Assembly (NCBI GenBank): GCA_027622275.1
Contig: JAQBZB010000034.1
Coordinates: 1 to 47,136 of the forward strand
Direction: 5' to 3'
DNA from: Planctomycetota bacterium
Lineage (GTDB): Bacteria > Planctomycetota > Planctomycetia > Pirellulales > Pirellulaceae
Length of the DNA stretch: 47,136 nt
Below the pieces are notes generated by a model. It worked only from the letters and a program-made list of their open reading frames with translations, was not told where the DNA came from and did no database searches. This document shows positions 44,280 to 46,952 of this stretch, piece after piece. The translations under genes and the position numbers were made by a program. Position 1 is the first letter of the stretch; every line of letters starts with the position of its first letter.

Positions 44280-45530
44280 TTACATGAAGTTCGGCGTGTG
44301 CAAGTCCGACAAGTTCTGTGCTTGCTCGGTTGTGAATCCCGCATGTTCCAAGCGTTTCACCCGGCTGGCGTGCATGGTGTGCAGCAACTCGCGAAATGCG
44401 TCATGCCCGCGGGCGATCGACTTTGAATCCGTACTACCGGCGGCGAGCACGGTCAATCCATCTTGCAGCGGTTCCGGCGCACCGCCGACATTCGAAAGAC
44501 TCACCGCTCGTTTCCGCACCGCGGCTTCCAGCCGGCCGTACAAGCTTGCATCATGAGCCAAGGCGTGTCGCACATGCACGAGCCCAAAACGCACGTGACG
44601 TGCTTCATCGTTGCGGGCACGCCGCACAATGTCGGCCGTCACTTCATCCGGGGCGTGGTCTTCGATGAACGTCAACAAATCCAAGAACGTCCCCTCTCCC
44701 AGGACAGACAGCAGGAACGCCGCTTCGGTAAAGTCTTCCAGCTCAAGAAGCGAGAGCAACGACTGCGAAGTGGTTGCCGACGACACGCCCAACCCGCCGC
44801 CCCCCGCGCGGGCTCGCTTGAGAAAGACGTCGATGTGCCGTGCCTCGTCAGCCATCTGCGTCGAAAGAAACATCGCCGTCTCGGCGTACGCTGGGTGAAT
44901 CCGCGAAATGAATTTGGAAGGGAGATAAAGCGCTGACAGCTCGTTCTCGGCGAGGAAAGTAAACACTTGGCCGAGTGCTCTTTCGATCACATCCGGCAGT
45001 TTGCGGATCTTGTTCCAAGCGATGTCCGTGGCGGCGTTCCATTGCGCGGCGACGGCCTGATCGTACAGTTTCGCGATTTCAGGAGGTGCTACGTGGTCGC
45101 GGTCCAGCAGCGTAAAGGGGTAGCGCGGACCACCCGGTTCGACGCGCGCCCCGCGCGGCGCGAAGCCGCTCGACGGATCGGCATGCTCGGGCATCGGAAT
45201 CGACTTCAGAACATCCTCCGTCGAAATGTGACCGTCGCGCTGCGGTAGCGTGACGCCGCTCTCGCGCTGACCGCTGGGCAAGGACAAAGCGCCACGGCCG
45301 ATCAAGTGCCGGTCGTAGCCCTGTTCGGTCCGTTGCCGCTCACGATACTCGTGATGTTGCAGCTGGCACCAACGGGGCAAGTCGTCGCGCAAAGCCTGAT
45401 TGACCGAATTGACCGCCAAGACGCCACCCGGCTCCAAGAGATCCAAAGCGGGGCGGATCAACGCCAGCAGACCGCCTCCCAAAGCCAAATCGCCGCCATC
45501 GATCGCCAACGCCGCATTTTCGTTTTGCAC
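44280..45530 (-). CDS. TusA-like domain fused to a diiron ferritin-like domain
   Basis: A 416-residue protein. Residues about 5-75 follow the TusA/SirA fold pattern (LLALIRPALDLLEPGGVLAVNS, then ALRDDLPRWCQLQHHEYRE), but the normal CPxP motif is replaced by LALGGG, so the sulfur-carrying Cys is absent. Residues about 130-416 form a ferritin-like four-helix bundle with diiron ligands in ENELSAL, DEARHIDVF, LGEGTFLDLL and NDEARHVRFG, similar to AurF-like oxygenases and CADD-type proteins. GTG 45530 is chosen because the TusA-like part begins there; it is five bases downstream of the upstream gene's stop. The reaction is unknown. The ending DLHTPNFM has no known meaning. Confidence 0.8.
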   Translation of the reverse strand: MQNENAALAIDGGDLALGGGLLALIRPALDLLEPGGVLAVNSVNQALRDDLPRWCQLQHHEYRERQRTEQGYDRHLIGRGALSLPSGQRESGVTLPQRDGHISTEDVLKSIPMPEHADPSSGFAPRGARVEPGGPRYPFTLLDRDHVAPPEIAKLYDQAVAAQWNAATDIAWNKIRKLPDVIERALGQVFTFLAENELSALYLPSKFISRIHPAYAETAMFLSTQMADEARHIDVFLKRARAGGGGLGVSSATTSQSLLSLLELEDFTEAAFLLSVLGEGTFLDLLTFIEDHAPDEVTADIVRRARNDEARHVRFGLVHVRHALAHDASLYGRLEAAVRKRAVSLSNVGGAPEPLQDGLTVLAAGSTDSKSIARGHDAFRELLHTMHASRVKRLEHAGFTTEQAQNLSDLHTPNFM

Positions 45531-45534
45531 GATG

Positions 45535-46344
45535 TTACTCAGGGGTGGGATTCGCCAACGCCTCGCGCAAGCTCTCATAACCGCTCTCGCGCGGCGGCAT
45601 CCAGACCTTCAGACCTTCCAACTCCAGCAAGCGGCGGTGCTCGGGAACGTCCCATCTCATGCCGAACAATGCTTTCTTGAACCGCTCGATTTTGCCGACG
45701 TCGAGTCCGGGCAGCGCGTCGAACATGCAGTGGTCAAAAGGTGGAGTCGTCCAGAGGGAACGAATCAGATTCGTGTCGACATGGCCCGCCGATTGTTCAT
45801 TCACCCAAATCAAGTCACCGACCGTCCCCGCATCAGCTCGTCCATTCGCCAAAGCCTCCAGCACATCAATTTCGCTGGTCCCCGTGTCGCCGTGCTTGCC
45901 GACGTCGGTGTCGAATTTGAGGAAACGTACCTGCTCCAAATCAACGCCCTCCTGGCGGAGAAAATGCAGCGGCAAGATGCGGGCCTGCGTCGAGTCGCGG
46001 CTGCCGACGGCTAACGTCTTTCCTTCCAGGTCCTTTAACGCGGCGATGCCCGAATCACTCCGGACCACGAGGCGTGAGCGAAAATCCTGGTCGGAATCCC
46101 GCATCCCCAGCGATAGAGAACGGTCGTCCGTCTGCTGTCGAACTCGAACGTGAGCCAACGGCGTATTCCAAGCGACATCGATGTGCCCCTTCAGCAACAG
46201 CTCAACCTGGCGTTCGTAGTTGGAGAACAGCACGAAGTCCATCGGAGCCCCTTCATTTTGAAAGTGCTGGCGAATGCCCTCCCAAATCGTCACGACCTTG
46301 GCGTCATACGCTACGGCACCCAGCAGAATGGTCTCATCGCTCAC
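45535..46344 (-). CDS. PhnD/SsuA-type substrate-binding protein without signal peptide
   Basis: A 269-residue protein of the periplasmic-binding type II fold, PhnD (phosphate/phosphonate) branch: ILLGAVAYDAKVVTIWEGIRQHF, DFVLFSNYERQVELLLKGHIDVAWNTPLAHVR, LKDLEGKTLAVGSRDSTQARILPLHFLR, NGRADAGTVGDLIW and PPFDHCMFDALPGL. From the GTG at 46344 (AGGA at 11 bases) there is no signal peptide, which is odd for a transport binding protein and suggests a cytosolic ligand-binding role. The in-frame stretch back to 46416 is Arg/Asn-rich and not a leader. It is closely followed by the TusA/ferritin fusion, surely as one unit. Confidence 0.85.
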   Translation of the reverse strand: MSDETILLGAVAYDAKVVTIWEGIRQHFQNEGAPMDFVLFSNYERQVELLLKGHIDVAWNTPLAHVRVRQQTDDRSLSLGMRDSDQDFRSRLVVRSDSGIAALKDLEGKTLAVGSRDSTQARILPLHFLRQEGVDLEQVRFLKFDTDVGKHGDTGTSEIDVLEALANGRADAGTVGDLIWVNEQSAGHVDTNLIRSLWTTPPFDHCMFDALPGLDVGKIERFKKALFGMRWDVPEHRRLLELEGLKVWMPPRESGYESLREALANPTPE

Positions 46345-46952
46345 GTGATTCACGTTCCTGGTTGAAGGAAAGGCTGAACGGTCGCATCGATCGAAGACAT
46401 TGTATCGCCGAGGCAATTCGAGACCAATCGTGGGGTGTTCAGTTTCAAGGGTTTTGATTCATTCAATCTGTAACGCGTTCAATCGAGTAGCATGGCCTCG
46501 TAGGCCGTGCGTTTTCTGACGCGCCGACCCCGACACGGCCTACGAGGCCATGCTACCTCGTACGCAACCTAAAACAAACAGAGCCCTGTGTTCAGTCTGG
46601 TGCTGTCGATGCCAATGACGTCGATCCATATTTGTCCCGCATAGTTACCCTTTCCGCCGATCCAGTGTCGGGGAATTCCTGTCCCCAACGAGCTTGTCTC
46701 GTTGGGAAAAAAGATTCGCCAGTTAAAAGAAAATGTGACCGGAGTCGAGACCCCCATGGGCTTGTCCCGTTCGGTGAATGAGATTTGATCCTGACTTATT
46801 CATGCCCTCAATGCACTGTCCGGCTGACGTGCCTTCACGAGACAGCGGGGCGTGTGAGGTCGGCGGGCGGCGCGTCGGGGCGTAAGGCCCCCTACCCCAA
46901 GTTGTCGTGTGCTGAATTGATCCCATGAGAAACTACGCCGACAGGAGGCACG
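46345..46952. other. 608-base region without a recognisable gene
   Basis: No frame here looks like protein. It contains the long palindrome at 46487-46556, a CCCAACGAG/CTCGTTGGG hairpin at 46684-46706 followed by an A-run, and a smaller GGGGA/TCCCC pair around it (46670-46686). The stretch 46723-46926 is open on the minus strand but its composition looks non-coding. Confidence 0.6.
46487..46556. repeat. 23-bp perfect inverted repeat with 24-base loop
   Basis: GTAGCATGGCCTCGTAGGCC... at 46487-46509 and its exact complement at 46534-46556 form a strong stem; the arms extend by a few more bases beyond GTAGC with CGAG. It is another palindrome family distinct from those at 1132, 6153, 12275, 13138 and 38388. 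Confidence 0.88.

Follow-up and report, generated by a model that had tools for sequence, protein, structure and literature searches.

Two adjacent genes in contig JAQBZB010000034.1 of a planctomycete of the family Pirellulaceae (assembly GCA_027622275.1; this 47,136-nt stretch, positions 1 to 47,136, is called the window below) encode a PhnD-fold binding protein (PBP) and a fusion of a TusA-like domain with a ferritin-like diiron domain. We propose, with a probability of roughly 0.55, that they are two thirds of a cytosolic cassette, which would consist of an acyl-CoA dehydrogenase (ACAD)-like flavoprotein, a PhnD-fold carrier, and a catalyst docked via a TusA-like domain devoid of the sulfur-carrier cysteine. 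The gene set is conserved, its TusA-like domain is shared with a radical S-adenosylmethionine (radical-SAM) protein, the diiron and radical-SAM forms are mutually exclusive among the scanned genomes, the diiron ligands are invariant, and the PBP has no signal-like N-terminus.

Gene pair and conserved gene set

Both genes are located on the minus strand, with the PBP gene first (GTG start at 46344, TAA at 45537-45535). The fusion gene (GTG start at 45530, stop at 44280) follows after a gap of 4 bases, one fewer than given in an earlier note made from this DNA sequence. The features of the pair are as follows:

45535..46344, minus strand: PBP, signal-less, PhnD-fold, Rv1680-like, 269 amino acids (Pfam, NCBIfam, structure model)
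44280..45530, minus strand: TusA-like/diiron fusion, 416 amino acids (structure model and Foldseek matches to diiron oxygenases and TusA)
45297..45509, minus strand: TusA-like domain, residues 8-78, without the carrier Cys (secondary structure of the model, Foldseek, alignment, homology to the radical-SAM N-terminus)
44283..45077, minus strand: predicted ferritin-like diiron domain, residues 152-416 (model, Foldseek, ligands invariant in 42/42)
44835..44846, minus strand: first ExxH motif, E229..H232 (alignment)
44595..44606, minus strand: second ExxH motif, E309..H312 (alignment)

A scan of a genome collection with a PBP alignment built from planctomycete sequences yielded 459 relatives, the best 80 of which were compared. 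Together with seven planctomycete loci (L041, L045-L050) and the window, they form a set of 88 loci, from which the duplicates L038, L043, and L044 had been dropped by hand; genes were called by a codon-score script, which missed some of them. Relatives of the PBP cassette are spread across many phyla. The most constant partner of the PBP is an ACAD-like gene, found in 72 of the 88 loci at most 1.5 kb upstream and in the same orientation; it adjoins the PBP gene in G002, the nearest relative and a member of the same genus, as well as in each of the other 13 planctomycete loci fetched around the fusion. Thus, the "two-gene unit" of the earlier note is a real pair, but too narrow a description. 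The ACAD of G002 is nearest to the NCBIfam family Rv1679 FadE16 (400 bits, cut-off 600). The Glu of the YEGT region is catalytic in acyl-CoA dehydrogenases; at this position, the only one compared, all 13 aligned cassette ACADs have Ala in place of the Glu of the solved dehydrogenases.

Three kinds of third gene were observed. A TusA-diiron fusion (type I) is present in 47 loci, five of these being fragments or broken frames, a radical-SAM protein of the "Rv1681 family" (type II) in 28, and a MetE-like gene in one (L120). The proportion of 47 to 28 is no census, since the scan used planctomycete sequences and diiron forms are likely over-represented; the radical-SAM version occurs in many soil bacteria. 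The type II protein of L124, for example, scores 494 bits in the NCBIfam family "Rv1681 family radical SAM" (cut-off 380). In type I loci the diiron gene follows the PBP gene (36 loci) or precedes the ACAD gene (11 loci), so the gene order varies while the gene set stays together. Thirteen loci have neither a diiron nor a radical-SAM gene, including L120, five loci of Polyangium, and three others with the PBP gene at most 1 kb from the contig start. The Polyangium homologues (L082-L086, 55-56% identical) have no ACAD, diiron, or radical-SAM match nearby, and two Polyangium genomes scanned gave no full-length diiron or radical-SAM match.

Among 392 planctomycete genomes, the PBP was found in 30 (E<=1e-30) and the fusion in 18 (E<=1e-50), 17 of which belong to the 30. 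Of the 13 genomes with the PBP but no fusion, ten have a MetE-like gene at most 5 kb from the PBP gene (type III), with an OsmC-like family member called in 8 of the 10 and an ACAD match in 9; in the remaining three, ACAD and PBP lie on short contigs or at the edge of a contig, and no third gene is seen. A radical-SAM protein of the Rv1681 type (NF049973) was rejected for planctomycetes, as none of the 392 genomes, that of the window included, gave a score over the cut-off; at 1e-20 the model matched 87 of the 392 genomes and also, below the cut-off, 2 of 14 control genomes.

The PhnD-fold binding protein

The PBP of the window scores 132.5 bits against the Pfam family Phosphonate-bd (PF12974, cut-off 27) and fits best in the NCBIfam family Rv1680 SBP-like (NF049985), where its 311.3 bits do not reach the curated cut-off of 400. 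The structure model (mean predicted local distance difference test, pLDDT, 95.9) matches PhnD1/PtxB. The closest folds and sequences are the oxyanion or phosphonate binders PhnD1, PtxB, ArrX, and AioX, and the proteins nearest in fold bind phosphite, methylphosphonate, arsenate, or arsenite. With PhnD1, PtxB, and AioX the PBP shares its fold and a remote sequence similarity; it differs in having neither a signal-like N-terminus nor, with one exception among the 88 loci, a called ATP-binding cassette (ABC) ATPase gene within 4 kb. By a hydrophobicity rule, used in place of a dedicated predictor, a hydrophobic N-terminus was found under no in-frame start in any of the 88 loci. Motifs of ABC ATPases, searched for in called genes only and without a search for permeases, were detected near one PBP gene (L121). 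A phosphonate importer is therefore not supported. Many polar residues are invariant in an alignment of 45 of the 88 PBPs, including Y43, R82, D85, D117, S118, K150, H151, D153, and E158, and H205 and C206 are present in 44 of the 45 sequences.

The fusion protein and its TusA-like domain

The AlphaFold2 model of the fusion, computed with 42 aligned homologues (pLDDT 93.5, predicted template modeling score 0.93), contains a TusA-like domain followed by a ferritin-like helical bundle. The alignment covers 42 of the 47 fusion proteins; L076, L078, L096, L100, and L104 were excluded as fragments or shifted. In the N-terminal domain, secondary structure elements follow the order strand-helix-strand-helix-strand-strand, and Foldseek aligns this domain with E. 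coli TusA (3lvj_C; template modeling score 0.81 by target length, E 1.9e-3), the TusA-fold matches also including 1dcj and 3hz7. Against Pfam TusA (PF01206) the fusion scores 19.3 bits, under the cut-off of 28.6, and 39 of the 42 homologues match at E<=0.1. TusA proteins carry sulfur on the Cys of a CPxP motif. The N-terminus of the fusion has their fold in common but not this residue: the carrier position holds Cys in none of the 42 sequences, single rows having a Cys two or four residues earlier, and a true sulfurtransferase was rejected on this ground.

The presumed diiron ligands E197, E229, H232, E279, E309, and H312 are identical in all 42 homologues. Judged by the model, the fusion is a ferritin-like diiron protein with an E, ExxH, E, ExxH ligand set, and the enzyme probably uses O2. 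Its bundle matches aldehyde-deformylating oxygenases, the azoxy synthase VlmB, and R2lox in Foldseek, with 12-20% identity among the 50 matches listed. The fusion thus has the fold and the E/ExxH ligands of these oxygenases but differs from them by low identity, family scores under the cut-offs, and the fused TusA-like domain. Simple membership in AurF (PF11583; 18.1 bits, cut-off 29.6; 33 of the 42 homologues match at E<=0.1), DUF455 (18.1 bits, under the cut-off), or R2lox (NF006200; 38.8 bits, curated cut-off 194) was rejected, and scores against R2 models are likewise under the cut-off. A defense system was also rejected, as neither window protein has a match in PADLOC at E<=0.01. In the same-genus genome G002, the diiron gene is partly duplicated, the incomplete second copy being split over two frames (L171, 279-741; G002:C7).

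The N-terminal domain is shared with the radical-SAM protein of type II loci. In a comparison of the whole families by hhalign, only 83 N-terminal columns align (probability 97.2, E 3.7e-11), and for the N-terminal domains alone the E-value is 1.5e-15; the latter comparison included 47 diiron and 26 of the 28 radical-SAM N-termini and only 3 domains of the CGxG group considered below. In the radical-SAM alignment (21 of the 28 proteins), 17 sequences match Pfam TusA at E<=0.1, none has a Cys at the carrier position, and CxxxCxxC is intact in all 21. The one locus that seemed to encode both catalysts (L069) was rejected as such, since only the shared N-terminal domain was involved.

Diiron and radical-SAM forms are mutually exclusive in the genomes scanned. 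In a scan of 47 genomes, the radical-SAM protein was found at full length in all 11 of the radical-SAM type, in none of the 29 of the diiron type, and in none of the 7 others, two matches being confined to the radical-SAM core (G438, G461). A reciprocal scan of 26 genomes with the fusion gave no full-length match in 16 radical-SAM-type genomes and one partial match (2.8e-11). On a midpoint-rooted tree of 100 PBPs, which omitted L047 and the tandem PBPs L163 and L164, the radical-SAM label changes twice and the MetE label once; the diiron label changes 13 times and the absence of a third gene 11 times, largely against each other. The sister of a group of 27 radical-SAM rows is the diiron-type row L093 (a long branch), and that of the MetE group is a cluster of rows mostly of the diiron type; the second radical-SAM change, Streptomyces L109, sits on a long branch with an unsure placement. 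Because the two families share this domain only, exclude each other, and show these label changes on the PBP tree, we read them as alternatives.

These results confirm what the earlier note observed and support its interpretation in part. It had described a PhnD-type protein without an export signal and without an adjoining transporter ATPase, followed by a TusA-like domain devoid of its sulfur-carrier Cys and a diiron bundle with two ExxH pairs. Of the findings that it named as evidence to the contrary, signal-like N-termini were absent among the homologues examined, and an ABC-ATPase-like gene was called near the PBP gene in one of the 88 loci; the N-terminus of the fusion has the TusA-like predicted fold that it had suggested. 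Its idea of a docking module gains support, as a radical-SAM enzyme of unrelated type carries the same Cys-less domain and has the same partner genes.

Proposed function and alternatives

In the cassette as we propose it, the PBP would act in the cytosol, holding a small anionic ligand and passing it between the flavoprotein and the docked catalyst, the two enzymes acting in turn. The TusA-like domain, its own chemistry lost, would keep an adaptor role and hold the catalyst to the PBP or the ACAD. The catalyst of the window would activate O2 at its diiron site, and relatives would use a radical-SAM center for the same step. The earlier note inferred that a small ligand is bound and then oxidised; since the diiron enzyme is replaced by a radical-SAM or MetE-like protein, this step need not be a simple oxidation. 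A first guess at the chemistry would place an attack or a dealkylation at a carbon adjacent to a heteroatom. More tentatively, and at less than even odds, three unrelated metal centers (diiron, radical-SAM iron-sulfur, and MetE-type zinc) may be interchangeable for one step on a PBP-held ligand with a flavoprotein, two of them recruited by the same inactive sulfur-carrier domain.

Several observations weigh against the proposed cassette. No third gene was seen in 12 of the 88 loci. In the fusion scan, ten genomes not of the radical-SAM type gave a long match elsewhere in two (L105 and L131), a match to the TusA-like part only in one (L089), and none in seven, including L120; for the nine without a third gene the counts are two, one, and six. 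The five of these nine that were also scanned with the radical-SAM model, as well as L131 and L105, gave no full-length match to it. ACAD and PBP can thus stand without a recognized catalyst, although most such genomes are drafts. The window's own genome has its best ACAD homologue on another contig (C154), and this protein is 77% identical to the same-genus ACAD, as compared with 88-89% for the PBP and the fusion; either the set is split here, or the C154 ACAD may, judging from these identities, be a paralogue. The organisms with diiron and radical-SAM forms are mostly aerobes, and therefore the presence or absence of oxygen is not an obvious reason for the swap. Mutual exclusion could also stem from inheritance of whole cassettes by separate lineages performing different chemistry. 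Finally, neighboring genes differ between the types: a GT2 family occurs near 16 of the 28 type II loci and the MetE-type locus L120 but near a single type I locus (L077); DUF2064 genes are confined to the surroundings of type II loci and L120. These neighbors, along with the fact that the three chemistries are unrelated, favor a possible alternative, in which ACAD and PBP are a common front end, the diiron, radical-SAM, and MetE-like proteins perform different follow-up reactions that yield different products, and the TusA-like domain is a shared docking tag. One-for-one replacement and exclusion in the genomes scanned, and the presence of the same degenerate domain on two unrelated catalysts, argue against it.

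Other alternatives concern the individual components. MqnA/MqnD and THI5 are cytosolic proteins of the PBP fold that act as an enzyme or a self-sacrificing substrate. A similar role for the PBP, with the diiron protein acting on it or on its product, agrees with the lack of a signal-like N-terminus in all loci and with the many invariant polar residues, but the proteins nearest to it in fold and sequence are genuine binders of oxyanions or phosphonates, and we consider this role rather unlikely. The cassette might also take a methyl or alkyl group off a small oxyanion-like compound (phosphonate-, arsonate-, or sulfonate-like) by diiron hydroxylation, radical-SAM hydrogen abstraction, or MetE-like transfer to a zinc-bound thiol. 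This reaction class, dealkylation next to a heteroatom, is accessible to all three catalysts, the PBP relatives bind methylphosphonate, phosphite, arsenite, and arsenate, and type III MetE-like proteins keep the relevant motifs (see below); nevertheless, no other gene family recurs in more than four type I loci, and we regard this chemistry as doubtful. Still less probable is a TusA-like domain that remains a sulfur carrier or persulfide acceptor via another residue. Following the conserved Trp, 36 of the 42 diiron proteins and 15 of the 21 radical-SAM proteins have a Cys, and related CGxG domains accompany DsrE, OsmC-like, and MetE-like genes, in one case (L039) directly next to a diiron-type operon; however, the carrier position lacks Cys in 63 of 63 proteins, and this other Cys is not invariant. 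A decayed remnant of phosphonate uptake that happens to lie next to an unrelated gene, to which the PhnD fold and the lack of a nearby ABC ATPase would point, is very improbable; conservation in many phyla, the invariant residues, and the constancy of the partners stand strongly against it.

Upstream region and neighboring genes

Upstream of the PBP gene, 792 bases remain before the end of the contig, and this stretch gave no blastn match to the ACAD region of G002. It contains one further feature:

46487..46556, no strand assigned: palindrome resembling repetitive extragenic palindromic (REP) elements, with 23-nt arms, upstream of the PBP gene (repeat counts in the genome)

This perfect inverted repeat starts with GTAG and has 24 nt between its arms; the arm has 72 exact copies in the genome (37 forward, 35 reverse) and none in a reversed control. 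It is a REP-like element outside the cassette, located where many relatives carry the ACAD gene. On C154 (L168, 1666-4213; G000:C154), the ACAD homologue is preceded, 1 base upstream of its start, by a 460-aa frame belonging to no Pfam family, and a similar frame lies after the ACAD gene in L156.

Seven type III MetE-like frames keep the motifs around GS, FDEP, LE, and NPDCG; the GE motif was correctly located in six of the seven, and the HxC motif was seen by eye in one sequence. According to PMC7857596, the GS, FDEP, LE, and NPDCG regions carry the zinc and homocysteine residues in MetE. The type III partner, which is not that of the window, thus keeps the motifs of MetE but differs from the core-MetE and MesD-MesX methionine synthases in its recurrent neighbors, the ACAD, PBP, and OsmC-like genes; MesX was not searched for. 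One genome with a MetE-type cassette has a 42-residue stretch that is 55% identical to the diiron C-terminus (L170, 4612-4725; G061:C31), a possible relic; another genome of this genus, G125, carries the diiron form.

The CGxG domains are a sister group of TusA-like domains that have kept the Cys; they are fused to MetE-like and OsmC-like proteins and lie with DsrE genes. In L039 (12377-16560), a cluster of transglutaminase-like, TusA, DsrE, TusA-OsmC, and MetE-like genes directly flanks the type I ACAD-PBP operon, and in G216 a tandem-PBP gene lies within such a CGxG cluster; these arrangements hint at a wider thiol or sulfur context. Tandem double-PBP genes of approximately 590-630 aa (L163, 7804-11861, G216:C50; L164, 8139-9914, G187:C30) possibly belong to a second, sister system; the one in L163 is located beside small TusA-like, DsrE, and TusA-MetE-like genes. 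Near radical-SAM-type and one MetE-type cassette, genes for GT2, DUF2064 (TIGR04282 in L124), and GT87-like or DoxX/DoxD-like proteins recur (L124, 1545-5458; L136, 10799-14050; L120, 4398-6579), and in Bradyrhizobium a second radical SAM/SPASM gene lies near the radical-SAM-type cassette. The TIGR04282/DUF2064, GT2, PNP-like, and weak ArsM-like neighbors of type II would point to an arsenosugar pathway, but such genes are hardly seen beside the diiron type.

Relation to known families

The diiron cassette has the same ACAD and PBP partners as the NCBIfam set Rv1679 (FadE16), Rv1680 (SBP-like), and Rv1681 (radical SAM, MoeX), which, to go by their numbering, are neighbors in M. tuberculosis, and the Rv1681-family protein carries the same Cys-less TusA-like N-terminal domain as the fusion. 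The form in the window differs by its diiron catalyst and by scores below the curated cut-offs (311 versus 400 for its PBP, 400 versus 600 for the same-genus ACAD). The radical-SAM set is already catalogued as families. A search of open-access literature, mostly titles and the beginnings of abstracts, found no function for the Rv1679, Rv1680, and Rv1681 families and did not find the diiron and MetE forms. Rv1680 is given as a "putative phosphonate transporter component" in one paper (PMC8562490); the PBP results above argue against this annotation for the present PBP family.

The proposed cassette links the widespread and poorly understood FadE16/Rv1680/MoeX gene set to a testable diiron/radical-SAM swap on one docking domain. 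To our knowledge, few such swaps are known, one example being chlorophyll synthesis with its oxygen-dependent and oxygen-independent cyclases. Hosts that carry the set by itself would offer a route to its substrate.

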